DNA of 64,000 nt from an uncultured Bacteroidales bacterium (GTDB lineage Bacteria; Bacteroidota; Bacteroidia; Bacteroidales; UBA932). Each line of letters opens with the position of its first letter. Positions within the stretch are counted from its first letter, which is position 1. Shown piece after piece: positions 19,713 through 37,452 of this stretch. The DNA lies in contig CALVDI010000001.1 in assembly GCA_944326225.1 (NCBI GenBank), positions 105,691 to 169,690 on the forward strand, given 5' to 3'. Below the pieces are notes generated by a model. It searched no databases. It saw only the letters and a list, made by a program, of their open reading frames with translations, and had not been told where the DNA came from. The position numbers were made by a program, and so were the translations under genes.

Positions 19713-20228
19713 CTAGAAACCGCGTATCTCCCTGCTGAGGGACATATATGCAGAAAGCCAGTTACTGCGCCAGGACAAATCCCCATTGAATCTATTGACA
19801 TTTATCTCCGGAATCTTAACATAGACAGTTTTACTTTTTTCCCTGTATCCATAAAGGTCTCCAATATGGCCCGTTCTCCTATACTCCTCATCCATCTCCT
19901 CATCCGAACGCTCATACTTCTCATTGTAATTCCAGGTAGTAACAAGATAACCGGCATAAGGGCGCGTCTGCGTAAGCACCATACTGTCTATCGTGATACT
20001 GTTCACACCTTCATACTCCTGCTCATGCAACGGGATATCAGCCCTTTCCCTCTCTACCACCATCCGTTTCACACGCTCGGCATCACTCTCTTCCGGCTGA
20101 ACTTCCTCCTGAGGTTCCTCGGGCTGAGACTCAACGGCCCCTTCGTTCTGCTTCGTCAGCATAACCGCTATAAACACAATAAACACCACATTAAGGGCAT
20201 ACGAAATAACATTCAATAATTTTCTCAT
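19713..20228 (-). CDS. Unknown protein with one N-terminal membrane segment
   Basis: 171 residues. A hydrophobic anchor at about 6-24 is followed by a Glu/Gln/Pro-rich linker to about residue 52, then a mixed domain rich in E, Y and R. No family is recognised. The gene stands alone behind its own promoter-like TAGCTTTG at 20334-20327, in an AT-rich accessory stretch. An inner-membrane protein with a periplasmic domain is the simplest reading. Confidence 0.55.
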   Translation of the reverse strand: MRKLLNVISYALNVVFIVFIAVMLTKQNEGAVESQPEEPQEEVQPEESDAERVKRMVVERERADIPLHEQEYEGVNSITIDSMVLTQTRPYAGYLVTTWNYNEKYERSDEEMDEEYRRTGHIGDLYGYREKSKTVYVKIPEINVNRFNGDLSWRSNWLSAYMSLSREIRGF

Positions 20229-20368: not shown

Positions 20369-21388
20369 CTAAAGGTCTTTCAGAATATCCTCTTCCGGGT
20401 CCTCCGAAAACAGATAATCGCTGCTGTAATACTCTATACTAAGGGATATCATATCTTGCTCACCATCAAGTGAAAGAAATATCACAGAGAAACCCGTATT
20501 CCAACTTGCCATAAAACTCATATCTCCCTTTTCCACTAATTCTCCCTCAGAGAACCATTGCTGGTCATAATACGTAGCATCTGATTTTTTATCATTGCGG
20601 TACGGTTCACCGTATTTTTTCGTAAGCAACCTTACAAGCCTGTCATAATTACTTACGCACTTATCCGAATTCACATTCGTAAATATATACTTTCCGCTTG
20701 TAAATCTGTCATCTGTAAAACGATAAGCACACATACACTCCATTCCTGCCACATAAGTTTTAAATGAATATATACCCTCTATGTCAAACTCATCCGCCCT
20801 GCCTTCTTTTTTCATTATCTCCTCCATTGAATCACCCCAATATCCTTGACGAAAGTCAGGATTACGGCTAACTGCCGAAACTGCAATTATACGCTGTTCT
20901 CCCTCTCCTGCAGAGATAGTCAAAAACATCGGAACAGCACTGTCCCAAGTCTTGACATCGCCTGTTTTATATCCCATGAATCCCTCATATGCAGTAATTT
21001 CCACATCTTCCATGACATCATCCGGGCTTCCGAGTCTTTCTTCCACTATTCTTTCTATATCTTCAACTTTGTATGTGAAGAATGTCTGGCCAAGTGAATC
21101 CGTCGGCAATGAGATAAGCATAGGTCTTTGCGTCTGAGCATCATACATAACGATTGTCATCGTCCGATATTCTCCAATAAATACATTTCCCAACACATAC
21201 AAATCCGTGCCGGCATCAGGAATTGTATCAGTACTTATTATTACTCTATCCTTATACTTATCAACGAAATCACTTTTTGAAACATTCCAGTCAAATGAAT
21301 ACGCCAAGTCAAAGAAATCAATCGGAACCTGAGCTGACACAGAGATTGCAAAGCCCGCAAGCAACAATAAAACAAATAACCGTTTCAT
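20369..21388 (-). CDS. Unknown exported protein
   Basis: 339 residues from the ATG at 21388. This start is preferred over the one at 21415 because it gives a clean signal peptide, MKRLFVLLLLAGFAISVSA. The longer version would place nine polar residues in front. The mature part is acidic and aromatic-rich, with no membrane segment and no family I recognise. It follows the 242-residue gene on the same strand with a gap of 27 bp, so the two are probably one unit. Confidence 0.6.
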   Translation of the reverse strand: MKRLFVLLLLAGFAISVSAQVPIDFFDLAYSFDWNVSKSDFVDKYKDRVIISTDTIPDAGTDLYVLGNVFIGEYRTMTIVMYDAQTQRPMLISLPTDSLGQTFFTYKVEDIERIVEERLGSPDDVMEDVEITAYEGFMGYKTGDVKTWDSAVPMFLTISAGEGEQRIIAVSAVSRNPDFRQGYWGDSMEEIMKKEGRADEFDIEGIYSFKTYVAGMECMCAYRFTDDRFTSGKYIFTNVNSDKCVSNYDRLVRLLTKKYGEPYRNDKKSDATYYDQQWFSEGELVEKGDMSFMASWNTGFSVIFLSLDGEQDMISLSIEYYSSDYLFSEDPEEDILKDL

Positions 21389-21415
21389 ATTAATTATTTT
21401 TATAAGATGTTTCAA

Positions 21416-22144
21416 CTAAAATTTCAATGCAAAGGTAAGCCCGGCAGTCAATTCCATATTGCTTCCCATCTTCACATAATCTATTGAAGGAAACACGCCA
21501 ATATCCACAGAAGAGCGCTCACGCATATCCTGATAGTACATATTTTTCACTTTTGCCACACGGACAGCGTCAACAATGCTGAAAATATCCAATGATAAAC
21601 ATGCTACCAATCCTACTACCGTTAACACAGCACCAACATCCGAATAACTATAATAAGCGACTGATGTCCCGGCCATTAACGCCATATGTCCCGCAAGAAT
21701 ACCTATACCACGCCCCCATTCTCCACATATACATTCCCCAAGTCCTGGAATAAAAAACGACACAACTCCTGCAACACCAGGCTTATACAAATCATCATAG
21801 CGCGGAACATACTCCCTACGATCATACATTCTTTTTAATTCCTTATATTTCAAATCCCTATATACATTCTTCTCTTTCATCATCTTGGGTTGGCAACTTT
21901 CCTCCTCAGAATAAAATGACTCCACCCTACCTGAAGATTCATATTTAATCATAAGAATTTCGGACTTTTTCATATTGTACAATGGACCTTCCAAATCATC
22001 AAGCAACTTATATTTTACATAATCATCACCTACCTCCACAATTTTAACCTCCAGTACATCTCCTGTTTTCTTTATTATACGGTCCTGCGCATTGCCTACT
22101 AAAGAAACCAAAACAAAAATCATTACAAACATTATGTGTTTCAT
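21416..22144 (-). CDS. Unknown membrane protein with signal peptide
   Basis: 242 residues. The signal peptide is about 1-19 (ending VGNAQ). A soluble part follows with a KKTGDVLEVKIVEVGDDYVKYK-like beta hairpin region, then a charged helix around 95-115. Two or three membrane segments lie between about 120 and 190, including GVAGVVSFFIPGLGECICG. The C-terminus is ELTAGLTFALKF. The soluble/membrane layout is reminiscent of small Bacteroidota envelope proteins such as DUF5683, but I cannot name a function. It lies downstream of the long structured leader at 22212-22394. Confidence 0.55.
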   Translation of the reverse strand: MKHIMFVMIFVLVSLVGNAQDRIIKKTGDVLEVKIVEVGDDYVKYKLLDDLEGPLYNMKKSEILMIKYESSGRVESFYSEEESCQPKMMKEKNVYRDLKYKELKRMYDRREYVPRYDDLYKPGVAGVVSFFIPGLGECICGEWGRGIGILAGHMALMAGTSVAYYSYSDVGAVLTVVGLVACLSLDIFSIVDAVRVAKVKNMYYQDMRERSSVDIGVFPSIDYVKMGSNMELTAGLTFALKF

Positions 22145-22211: not shown

Positions 22212-22394
22212 ATAAGAAAAGCGTGGATATGTTTGCTGTTGAGAGGTACGACCAAGCACCTGTACAGACACAAATATACCCACGCTAAAGCGCAGGCATT
22301 TGGTCTATTGTGCTGTCTGTAAGAATTATTTGGTCGTTTTCTCAACAAGACAATAAGCCTAATGCCATCTATGTAATCCAGCCGCAGCCAGATG
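22212..22394 (-). ncRNA. Candidate structured leader or small RNA with two exclusive folds
   Basis: Fold 1 is a 109-nt rod. Its pairs are 22346-22330 with 22255-22238, 22321-22314 with 22270-22263, 22302-22298 with 22275-22271, and 22296-22290 with 22285-22279, closing on a UUUA loop. Internal bulges separate these helices. Fold 2 pairs 22286-22271 with 22235-22220 (14 Watson-Crick pairs, one G-U and one mismatch) and is followed by a U-rich run, like an intrinsic terminator. The two folds share bases 22271-22286 and so compete. A promoter box at 22405-22398 feeds the region. It could be an attenuator or riboswitch for the gene ending at 21416, or a free 6S-like RNA. Confidence 0.45.
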
Positions 22395-22397
22395 AAA

Positions 22398-22405
22398 CAA
22401 AGATA
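22398..22405 (-). promoter_or_regulatory. Promoter of the structured leader
   Basis: TATCTTTG on the minus strand with TTG about 20 bp upstream matches the Bacteroidota consensus. Transcription would start near 22394, about 250 nt before the ATG at 22144. The structured region would then be part of a long 5' leader. Confidence 0.5.
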
Positions 22406-22498
22406 CGAAAAATTCCAGTAAGATTCAATTTATATTGACTCCCGCATCTAAAGCCTCTTTAATATGTGACTGCCGCAGAATCGTTGCGTTTTTGAACA

Positions 22499-22646
22499 GG
22501 CGGTGCGATGCGGATATTAAGACTCCTGAATATCAAAGTATTAGCTCACAGCATTGCACATTTGGACACTTTCAAACATGGTCAAATGTGCAGTGTATTT
22601 TGTAACCGACTGAAAATCAAGGATGATGTTTATAAGGCGCACCGCC
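22499..22646. repeat. Nested inverted repeats between aroE and the structured leader
   Basis: The outer arms GGCGGTGCG (22499-22507) and CGCACCGCC (22638-22646) are perfect complements. Inside, CATTGCACATTTGGAC and GTCAAATGTGCAGTG form a hairpin at 22552-22595 with a 13-base loop and one bulged G. No coding frame is convincing here. Together with the leader candidate it accounts for most of the 554-bp gap at 22145-22698. Confidence 0.5.
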
Positions 22647-35641: not shown

Positions 35642-35715
35642 GCCGATATAGCTCAGTTGGCCAGAGCAGCTGATTTGTAATCAGCGGGTCGTGGGTTCGA
35701 ATCCCTCTATCGGCT
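35642..35715 (+). tRNA. tRNA-Thr (TGT)
   Basis: 74-nt cloverleaf. Acceptor GCCGATA pairs with TATCGGC. The anticodon stem CTGAT/ATCAG holds TGT, and the T loop is TTCGAAT. The discriminator is T and no CCA is encoded. First of a Thr-Tyr-Gly-Thr-tuf run. Confidence 0.95.
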
Positions 35716-35740
35716 CAAGTTCATTGAATGACAACTATAT

Positions 35741-35823
35741 GGGGAGATACCAAAGTGGCCAACTGGGGCAGACTGTAAATCTGCTGGCGCACGCCTTCGG
35801 AGGTTCGAATCCTTCTCTCCCCA
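35741..35823 (+). tRNA. tRNA-Tyr (GTA)
   Basis: 83-nt class II tRNA. Acceptor GGGGAGA pairs with TCTCCCC. The anticodon loop CTGTAAA gives GTA. A long variable arm (GGCGCACGCCTTCGG region) is typical of bacterial tRNA-Tyr. The discriminator is A. Confidence 0.95.
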
Positions 35824-35872
35824 CACATACATGAAGAGGCATCCGCAGAAGATGCCCCGAATGAACGATGGA

Positions 35873-35951
35873 TTTTTCGTTTTTGAAGGGGCAGATTCAA
35901 GGAATGCGAGCGAGAAGCAATGACGCAGAAGATGCCCCTTCAAAACGAAAA
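35873..35951 (+). repeat. Long hairpin with conserved loop core between tRNA-Tyr and tRNA-Gly
   Basis: Arms TTTTTCGTTTTTGAAGGGGC and GCCCCTTCAAAACGAAAAA pair over about 20 bp. They are joined through tandem G-A mismatches to a core that starts TTCAAGG, contains TGCGA and AAGC, and ends ACGCAGAA. The same core sits inside the unrelated hairpin after rpoC (48653-48735). A partial copy, CGCAGAAGATGCCCC, lies at 35844-35858. The 3' arm ends 2 bp before tRNA-Gly, so it may act in tRNA processing. Confidence 0.7.
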
Positions 35952-35953
35952 AG

Positions 35954-36026
35954 GCGGAAGTAGCTCAGTTGGTAGAGCATCAGCCTTCCAAGCTGAGGGT
36001 CGCGGGTTCGAACCTCGTCTTCCGCT
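35954..36026 (+). tRNA. tRNA-Gly (TCC)
   Basis: 73 nt. Acceptor GCGGAAG pairs with CTTCCGC. The anticodon loop TTCCAAG gives TCC, and the T loop is TTCGAAC. The discriminator is T. Confidence 0.95.
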
Positions 36027-36034
36027 CTTAAAAA

Positions 36035-36106
36035 GCCAGTGTAGCTCAGGGGTAGAGCGCTTCCTTGGTAAGGAAGAGGTCATGAGTTCAAATCTCATCA
36101 CCGGCT
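36035..36106 (+). tRNA. tRNA-Thr (GGT) with an acceptor-stem mismatch
   Basis: 72 nt. Anticodon stem CTTCC/GGAAG holds GGT, and T stem ATGAG/CTCAT is intact. Acceptor GCCAGTG faces CACCGGC, leaving A4 opposite C69. All other pairs are normal. The rest of the sequence matches a typical Bacteroidota tRNA-Thr, so the gene is probably functional. It lies 35 bp before tuf. Confidence 0.9.
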
Positions 36107-36141
36107 CAATTTATTATATACATTAAATTAAATCTCACATT

Positions 36142-37329
36142 ATGGCAAAAGAAACTTTCAAAAGGGACAAGCCGCATGTTAACATAGGTACTATCGGCCA
36201 TGTTGACCACGGTAAAACTACTCTTACCGCAGCCATCACCAAGGTACTGGCTGAGAAAGGACTTTCTGAAGTCCGCTCATTCGATTCCATCGACAACGCA
36301 CCCGAGGAGAAGGAGCGTGGTATTACCATTAACACCGCTCATATCGAATATCAGACAGAGACACGTCACTATGCACACGTTGACTGCCCGGGTCACGCCG
36401 ACTATGTGAAGAACATGGTAACAGGTGCTGCTCAGATGGACGGTGCCATCCTCGTAGTTGCCGCTACCGACGGTCCTATGCCCCAGACCCGTGAGCACAT
36501 TCTGCTCGCCCGTCAGGTGAACGTGCCCAGAATCGTTGTGTTCCTGAACAAAGTTGATATCGTTGACGATCCCGAGATGATCGAGCTCGTTGAGATGGAG
36601 GTTCGTGAGCTTCTGAGCTTCTACGGCTTCGACGGTGACAACGCTCCCGTTATCGCAGGTTCCGCTCTCGGTGCCCTCAACGGCGAGCCCAAGTGGGTTG
36701 AGAAGGTTATGGAGCTGATGAACGCAGTTGACGAGTACATCCCCCTGCCTGTACGTGACAACGAGAAGCCTTTCCTGATGCCTATCGAGGACATCTTCTC
36801 CATCACAGGTCGTGGTACTGTTGCTACCGGCCGTATTGAGACAGGTATCGTTAAGGTCGGCGACGAGGTTCAGATCATCGGTCTCGGTGAGGAGCCCAAG
36901 AAGTCAGTCGTTACCGGTGTCGAGATGTTCCGCAAGATCCTCGACGAGGGTGAGGCCGGAGACAACGTAGGTCTGCTCCTCCGCGGTATCGACAAGAAGG
37001 AGATCAAGAGAGGTCAGGTTATCGCTCATCCCGGTACCATCACTCCTCATAAGAGATTCAAAGCCGCTATCTACGTGCTGAAGAAAGACGAGGGTGGCCG
37101 TCACACTCCTTTCCACAACAAATACCGTCCTCAGTTCTTCATCCGTACTCTGGACATCACTGGTGAGATTACTCTCCCTGAAGGAACAGAGATGGTTATG
37201 CCTGGCGACAACGTAGAGATCACAGTTGACCTCATCTACCCTGTAGCTATCAACGAGGGACTCCGTTTCGCTATCCGCGAGGGAGGACGTACAGTCGGTT
37301 CAGGTCAGGTTACAAAGATTCTCGAATAA
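36142..37329 (+). CDS. tuf: Elongation factor Tu
   Basis: 395 residues. It delivers aminoacyl-tRNA to the ribosome. The P-loop GHVDHGKT, the switch motif DCPGHADY with its catalytic histidine, and NKVD are intact. The beta-barrel domains are complete. T is unusually frequent at third positions (GGT, CGT, GTT), as expected for a very highly expressed gene. Cotranscription with the upstream tRNAs is likely, as in thrU-tyrU-glyT-thrT-tufB of E. coli. Confidence 0.98.
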
Positions 37330-37350
37330 TCTCTCATTAGAGTATAACTT

Positions 37351-37379
37351 AAAGGGGGGCTCTATTCGGCCCCCTTTTT
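37351..37379 (+). terminator. Intrinsic terminator after tuf
   Basis: AAAGGGGG and CCCCCTTT form an 8-bp stem around CTCTATTCGG, followed by a T run. It separates tuf from tRNA-Trp by a few bases, so downstream genes need read-through or their own promoter; no clear promoter is seen. Confidence 0.75.
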
Positions 37380-37381
37380 AA

Positions 37382-37452
37382 AGGGACATAGTTCAAGGGT
37401 AGAATAGCGGTCTCCAAAACCGTTGATGGGCGTTCGAATCGCTCTGTCCCTG
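37382..37452 (+). tRNA. tRNA-Trp (CCA)
   Basis: 71 nt. Acceptor AGGGACA pairs with TGTCCCT. The anticodon loop CTCCAAA gives CCA. The T stem contains one G-U pair, and the discriminator is G. It stands between tuf and secE. Confidence 0.95.

Follow-up and report, generated by a model that had tools for sequence, protein, structure and literature searches.

A conserved leader RNA with two competing folds, probably a transcription attenuator, found before unrelated genes in Bacteroidota

The leader and its surroundings in the window

The window, by which we mean the whole 64,000-nucleotide stretch of an uncultured Bacteroidales genome that was analysed, has on its minus strand a leader of approximately 250 nt (22405-22145). 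It is followed on that strand by a gene for a 242-aa protein (21416-22144) that belongs to no Pfam family and has, by eye, a signal peptide and a membrane stretch, and then by genes for proteins of 348 aa (20369-21415) and 171 aa (19713-20228). The 242-aa gene has a paralogue, 40% identical (G000:C7:28325-29041), with a leader copy of its own (G000:C7:28033-28271). Between aroE and the leader there is a hairpin (TGCACATTTGGAC..GGTCAAATGTGCA, 22555-22592), and a very similar one was seen in a genome of the same genus (L320, G013:C8). Elsewhere in the window, a cluster of five tRNA genes occupies the plus strand at 35642-37452.

The preliminary description of this DNA had reported a good promoter box at 22405-22398 on the minus strand, and the sequence there, TATCTTTG, does have the pattern TAnnTTTG, which we take to be the -7 box of the Bacteroidetes-type promoter. 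The description had also proposed two alternative folds for the transcript, and the arms of both were found in place: an outer stem of GTTGAGAAAACGACCAA (22346-22330) with TTGGTCGTACCTCTCAAC (22255-22238), and a terminator-like stem (22286-22271 with 22235-22220) followed by a U-rich run.

In the first fold, the rod state, the outer stem P0 is formed by GUUGAGA (22340-22346) and UCUCAAC (22238-22244), both arms being supported by arm swaps and by the rod-state alignment described below. Within it lie P1, formed by ACGACCAA (22330-22337) and UUGGUCGU (22248-22255) and supported by the rod-state alignment and model-found relatives, and P2, formed by UACAGACA (22314-22321) and UGUCUGUA (22263-22270) and supported by arm swaps. 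The rod is capped by an apical hairpin, H, in which CCUGCGC (22290-22296; rod-state alignment and model-found relatives) faces GCGUGGG (22279-22285). In addition, the P1 helix is flanked by an extra conserved complementary pair, Ps, consisting of AGGU (22258-22261) and ACCU (22244-22247), whose assignment is based on GGY/RCC compensation in relatives.

In the second fold, the terminator state, the 16-position stem T is formed by AGCGUGGGUAUAUUUG (22271-22286; arm swaps and terminator-state helices 3 and 4) and CAAACAUAUCCACGCU (22220-22235; arm swaps and terminator-state alignment), and behind it is the U-rich run UUUUCUUAU (22212-22220), which is weaker than that of many relatives. The 5' boundary of the element extends beyond the rod to two further arms at 22366-22350. 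One of these, GGCAUU (22361-22366), pairs with AAUGCC (22295-22300; terminator-state alignment) to form P-2, and the other, UAUUGU (22350-22355), pairs with ACAAUA (22306-22311) to form P-1, for which both arms are supported by arm swaps and the terminator-state alignment. GCGUGGG is the strand common to both states, being either the 3' arm of H or the 5' arm of the terminator, with identical columns pairing in the two.

Relatives of the element and covariation of its two folds

Apart from the window, a blastn comparison with 59 genomes (the window's own and relatives) recovered 73 bp in G018, a close relative in the same genus, and 20 bp at the promoter in one genome. Short matches were also present at two loci in other families of the order, each over ...CAGGTGCTTGGTCGTACCTC. 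At the latter two loci the flanks had diverged, yet the same arms pair. A pattern search allowing two mismatches hit 31 of 247 genomes, a noisy result given that the reversed-pattern control hit 21 of 247. The pooled matches of the pattern search, a scan of a species-genome collection and scans of viral contigs comprised at least 165 distinct loci, of which at least 134 had an upstream six-base complement of TGGTCG (or of a variant of it) and 31 had no exact partner.

From 65 of the 134 copies (alignment A2) we built a covariance model, R1, which confirmed 65 of the 69 remaining copies at E 0.01 or better. At that threshold R1 did not match L071, from a gammaproteobacterial metagenome-assembled genome (MAG), or the phage loci L171, L177 and L193, and it had no match in the whole genome of L071. 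These four unconfirmed copies stay, where present, in the orientation, arm-swap, covariation, U-tract, neighbour-gene and cluster counts given below. R1 also matched 8 of the 31 loci without an exact partner (L011, L055, L061, L145, L151, L153, L159 and L162).

The element is widespread. In a phylum search with stricter filters, over a sample of genomes of at least 90% completeness, R1 gave 82 matches in 46 of 296 genomes (the window's included), with up to 7 per genome; the window's genus had 29 matches in 13 of 19 genomes (the window's included), and the window's own genome had three. Most of the records among the pattern matches listed are titled Bacteroidota, and other titles are Deltaproteobacteria, Lentisphaeria, Kiritimatiellae, Ignavibacteria, Kapaibacterium and Verrucomicrobia. 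Many carriers are MAGs, but the finished Desulfonema magnum chromosome is among them too, and culturable carriers include Bacteroides clarus YIT 12056 and isolates of Flavobacterium and Chryseobacterium. R1 matched 13 of the 14 genomes behind loci with non-Bacteroidota titles, with 1 to 8 copies each, in a set that was picked because each genome held a pattern match and is not a sample.

Copies within a genome are diverged and number up to 7 or 8. At two loci, L210 (G017:C21:23447-23943) and L199 (G013:C26:28254-28750), two copies stand in tandem approximately 58 bp apart before the same ORF. At L038 (G124:C130), two elements 5 kb apart are each preceded by a near-identical 148-aa gene; these two genes are probably the two DUF6934 matches among the upstream genes, and their near-identity suggests that gene and leader may have been duplicated together.

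To assess both folds we used an arm-swap test, in which pairing of a copy's own arms is compared with pairing to the arms of other copies, on 120 non-redundant copies. Own arms beat the median swap in all 120 copies for P0, in 119 for P2, in 116 for P-1 and in 114 for T; the count for P1, which is nearly invariant in the pattern-derived set, was 78 of 120. On A2, 90.4% of the cells of the rod state and 84.0% of those of the terminator state were paired, with two-sided change in 326 cells (shuffled mean 118) and 191 cells (shuffled mean 72), respectively. The covariation score of each state was reached by none of 500 shuffles and collapsed when partners were slid by 1-3 columns. Two of the five measures were weak for the rod state, its two-sided pair count being reached by 81 of 500 shuffles and its pair-type count by 11 of 500. 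Among individual helices, P0 was paired in 92.1% of cells, with up to 6 pair types per pair. In the terminator state, P-2 (helix 1, columns 21-26 with 124-129) was paired in 88.8% and had two-sided change in 6 of 6 pairs, P-1 (helix 2) was paired in 73.2%, and the two parts of stem T (helices 3 and 4) in 86.8% and 70.3%.

The variation of P1 became visible in 58 matches found by R1, whose alignment was fitted to the rod structure, so that its counts lean towards the rod. Here P1 reads ACGACCAA, ACTGGTAA, ACTGCGAA, CTTCTACA and others, with two-sided change in 8 of 8 pairs and 99.8% pairing. The flanking AGGU/ACCU alternates with AGGC/GCCU across relatives, and the third pair of this GGY/RCC motif is U-A in 44 of the 58 rows, C-G in 11 and U-G in 2, with the motif absent in 1 weak row (40, 9, 2 and 1, respectively, among the 52 distinct rows). 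Conserved stretches surround the variable, covarying helices P0, P1 and P2, as in a riboswitch-type core.

The preliminary description had proposed that the two folds are mutually exclusive, and had named a lack of covariation among homologous regions as the result that would speak against them. The comparison of homologous regions gave the opposite result: both folds are conserved, both sets of helices covary with compensatory change in relatives, and we regard the two folds as a real feature of the element. In addition, G-U pairs outnumbered A-C mismatches in the rod (341:30) and in the terminator state (379:71), an excess indicating that the transcribed (minus) strand is the functional one.

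Folding energies placed the two states unequally. The minus strand at 22400-22200 folds at -59.6 kcal/mol (z -3.97), with none of 200 shuffles as good, and the unconstrained fold depends on the 3' end chosen: 22400-22200 gives the terminator state (-59.6) and 22400-22193 the rod (-65.0). In nested folding the rod lay below the terminator state by a mean of 6.7 kcal/mol, the terminator state being lower in 8 of 120 copies, and by nested free energy the rod was preferred in 117 of 120 RNAs cut before the 3' arm of T and in 110 of 120 full-length RNAs. Based on this preference, the terminator state would need either the order of synthesis or a signal in order to form.

The bases at 22271-22286 had been described as taking part in both folds. 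This was borne out for those of the apical hairpin (22285-22279), where H and T occupy identical columns and where, in addition, H overlaps the 3' arm of P-2; elsewhere the rod and T merely cross, and their exclusivity outside the hairpin would be steric. The crossing could instead reflect a single pseudoknotted fold in which the rod and T coexist; the leader would then serve as an aptamer or bind a protein, and would act by another route, such as through translation or the stability of the RNA. Rod and T have bases in common solely via H, P-1 just crosses the rod, P1 and the GGY/RCC pair are each conserved and could build a compact pseudoknot, and the rod is preferred in full-length RNA too. 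We nevertheless rate such a fold as unlikely, as the two-state consensus has H and T competing for identical columns and as, in the window, P0 is joined to the 16-position T stem by only 2 nt, a distance that, by geometry, would be too short to span a rod of approximately 23 pairs and so makes coexistence improbable.

Signals around the leader and the genes behind it

Among 125 copies, the next ORF of at least 60 aa was co-directional in 110, opposite in 12 and absent in 3; when the four unconfirmed copies are left aside, it was co-directional in 107 of 121. It starts a median of 107 nt behind the motif start. A second set, from the phylum search, which has no element in common with the first and in which one place is counted twice (L229, L274), gave 62 of 68 co-directional (5 opposite, 1 with none). 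The upstream gene was co-directional in 71 of 110 copies. Of 119 copies, 63 have a TAnnTTTG box that begins 70-140 nt upstream of P1; 69 such boxes were counted, compared with 5 on the opposite strand and 10 for the mirror-image pattern. In the second set, 47 of 68 copies carry the box close to where the match begins (71 boxes, compared with 8 on the opposite strand). Behind T, the best 8-mer contains 7 or more T in 77 of 120 copies; the corresponding numbers are 10 of 114 for a control place and 19 of 120 for the opposite strand. The co-directional next gene, the upstream promoter box and the U-tract together argue for a leader with a terminator inside it, and the hallmarks of an attenuator are present, namely a co-directional next gene and a terminator hairpin with a U-tract and a competing conserved fold. 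Based on comparison among the copies, the helices of both states, the strand that they share, the terminator-like end, the side of the promoter and the link with the next gene are established as features of the sequence.

A promoter box and a terminator would also be expected if the element were an independent small RNA (a 6S-like or a trans-acting one) whose transcription finishes at the intrinsic terminator, with the next gene a mere neighbour; the 109-nt rod with its internal loops recalls 6S RNA. This reading seems quite unlikely in view of the co-directional next ORF (110/125 and 62/68), the up to 7 or 8 diverged copies per genome and the lack of any Rfam gathering match, 6S included. Moreover, TAnnTTTG was at background level between terminator and ATG, occurring 3 times in 89 copies (9 on the other strand, 1 as mirror image).

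Ribosome-mediated attenuation via a short leader peptide was considered because the window has a tiny ORF, MALGLLSC (22342-22368), that begins at the P-2 arm and overlaps P-2/P-1, and because ORFs of the type MAFRLL.. lie at the same place in at least six members of an Alistipes-like subgroup. However, an ATG occurs in the 85 nt 5' of P1 in 69 of 120 copies, compared with 97 of 120 after single-base shuffling, and no leader peptide is conserved across the family, making this mechanism extremely improbable.

We also weighed the possibility that the element acts as DNA, folding when single-stranded, as a site of recombination or a mobile repeat would. The same module precedes unrelated genes and is patchy in relatives, and the DNA shared with G018 ends inside the rod, as such an element might. 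Such a role is very unlikely, however, as the G-U excess and the U-tract fall on one strand and the orientation to the gene is mostly fixed; in G018, moreover, only a 5' part has remained, which in this one genome pair resembles decay more than a clean excision. Sites of the integron attC type and the ends of IS or MITE elements were also considered, and were dropped because of the G-U excess and U-tract.

The G018 locus (G018:C21; L002/L006) is nearly identical to the window at 22315-22478 on the aroE side. It is without 91 bp, including the promoter box, between the CCGCAG copies at 22382 and 22473, its similarity to the window stops in the 5' arm of P2 (22315), and a gene that is Crp-like by eye comes next. 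From its sequence, this looks like a decayed leader whose gene has gone from the place.

The genes behind the leader are diverse. The 154 downstream proteins (101 of the first set and 53 of the second) formed 116 clusters, the largest being a 66-82 aa helix-turn-helix-like protein (10 members) and SusC/RagA-type receptors (9 members, from one taxonomic family). By a crude rule, 76 of the 154 have a signal-like N-terminus. No Pfam, NCBIfam or PADLOC family dominates among them, and a common gene or pathway was rejected: the top Pfam family accounted for 3 of 101 proteins in the first set, and SusC-type receptors for 9 of 53 in the second, all in the one family. Defence islands were likewise rejected, as the PADLOC families listed (25 of 58), which include methyltransferases, LmuA and RTasMBL, each match 1 of 101 proteins. 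A common upstream gene was also rejected, with HTH_17 at 5 of 110 and others at most 2.

Several of these neighbourhoods were inspected individually. The helix-turn-helix-like proteins, so assigned by eye, are from Bacteroidales and start 34-173 nt behind the motif (L041, L042, L047, L054, L056, L110, L112, L117, L148 and L158), and the SusC-type receptors of the one family are at L228, L230, L232, L233, L236, L242, L246, L273 and L282. At L294, a SusC gene is followed by genes that by eye are SusD-like and S9-peptidase-like. L019 has a 378-aa protein, TnpB/Cas12-like by eye, on the minus strand at -1425 to -288 relative to the motif.

The 242-aa gene has relatives, many of which are partial, in 46 of 149 genomes of the window's family. 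R1 found the leader at E 0.01 or better before 3 of 20 fetched homologue loci (the window included), with a fourth weak match at E 0.66, and at E 0.01 it found none before fetched homologues from outside the window's genus. The four leader copies before homologues of this gene, that of the C7 paralogue included, are all in the window's genus. Its presence before some homologues and absence before others make the leader look like a module that genes gain or lose.

Proposed mechanism and comparison with known RNAs

We consider it probable, from the comparative sequence evidence, that the leader attenuates transcription in cis and represents a new and widespread RNA class, and the best reading of the element is a bistable attenuator class that is a candidate riboswitch. 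It would probably act as an on/off switch for the gene behind it. Transcription would start just behind TATCTTTG. In state T, P-2 (GGCAUU/AAUGCC) and P-1 (UAUUGU/ACAAUA) would close a 5' domain, with the 5' halves of the rod enclosed in its loop, and GCGUGGG would pair with the downstream CCACGC, giving an intrinsic terminator, followed by U's, that halts polymerase ahead of the gene. In state B, P0, P1 and P2 would form the rod and the apical hairpin H would capture GCGUGGG, so that the terminator is blocked and polymerase reads into the gene. The rod of state B might be folded more compactly, as a junction in which P1 pairs into the loop of the AGGU..ACCU hairpin.

We infer that state B is the read-through state, that the switch answers a signal and that the conserved loops around P1 sense it. 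As the genes behind the leader are unrelated, the signal is likely to be general rather than the product of one pathway, and could be a nucleotide messenger, a stress or growth signal, or a transcription-elongation factor. The tandem copies before one ORF and the four copies before homologues of the 242-aa gene also favour the attenuator. The lack of a common function among the downstream genes, which point to no ligand, is unusual for a riboswitch and speaks against the attenuator, as do the copies whose next ORF is opposite or absent, the two weak rod-state measures and the negative R1 result before homologues from outside the genus. In addition, since nested folding favours the rod, formation of the terminator may depend on kinetic trapping or on a signal, or both folds may coexist as one pseudoknot.

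More tentatively, the element is possibly a multi-phylum riboswitch-like class with a general signal as ligand, serving as a portable on/off module before unrelated, often secreted or membrane genes in Bacteroidota, Deltaproteobacteria, Lentisphaeria, Kiritimatiellae and related bacteria. To our knowledge, few regulatory leader RNAs are known that Bacteroidota use before unrelated genes. The element is important in this regard as it is common in the phylum (46/296 genomes), has a complex core that is conserved between phyla, and precedes many uncharacterised genes, so that the identity of its signal would tell what these genes respond to. Knowing that signal could also give gut and environmental Bacteroidota a further general switch, driven by a second messenger or by stress, and might provide a genetic tool for them.

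A search of Rfam 15 at gathering level gave no match at the element in the window or in 20 related loci, and a relaxed threshold returned chance-level, low-scoring matches at the element, far below gathering scores. One weak match, to RF00512 (Leu_leader), scored 16.2 bits against a gathering score of 50. 6S RNA is a long rod with internal loops, which the rod of the element resembles, and a 6S-like RNA had been among the first suggestions for this locus. That suggestion was not upheld, as neither RF00013 nor RF01685 (6S-Flavo) had a gathering match in the window or the 20 related loci. RF01685 had none in the window's genome even at E 10, in a search of weak power, as none of its 14 control genomes gave a match at the family cut-off. 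The element and 6S are alike in length, but the element has a crossing terminator stem and a link in cis to a gene, and a 6S RNA would not be expected to lie directly before co-directional genes or to occur as several diverged copies in one genome.

T-box leaders (RF00230) have a terminator and an antiterminator that exclude each other and a GGU..ACC stretch, and the element is like them in both respects. A T-box was rejected as there was no RF00230 gathering match in the window or the 20 related loci. No tRNA-charging or amino-acid gene family was common among the most frequent downstream families.

In Flavobacterium psychrophilum, structured 5' elements without an Rfam hit have been reported before pheA, hisG, ftsY, acsA, alaS and rimP (PMC9723704). 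Like the present element, these are 5' leaders of Bacteroidota to which no Rfam family has been assigned. Candidate structured RNAs from the human microbiome, several of them in Bacteroidetes, include examples of 38-132 bp (PMC8040213), which as described in the text of the article are shorter and stand beside other genes. A literature search by title and abstract found no description of the element, and parts of the motif may already be listed, unnamed, in the supplements of earlier RNA surveys.

Riboswitches that terminate transcription are 5' leaders with a conserved core and then a terminator, one strand of which can also enter an alternative hairpin, and they can occur in tandem copies. 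The architecture of the element is like theirs, with the differences that it has no Rfam 15 gathering match and that its downstream genes have no common pathway. An attenuator or riboswitch had also been put forward at the outset, and as a class this agrees with what was found: both folds covary, the terminator has a U-tract, and the next gene is mostly co-directional.
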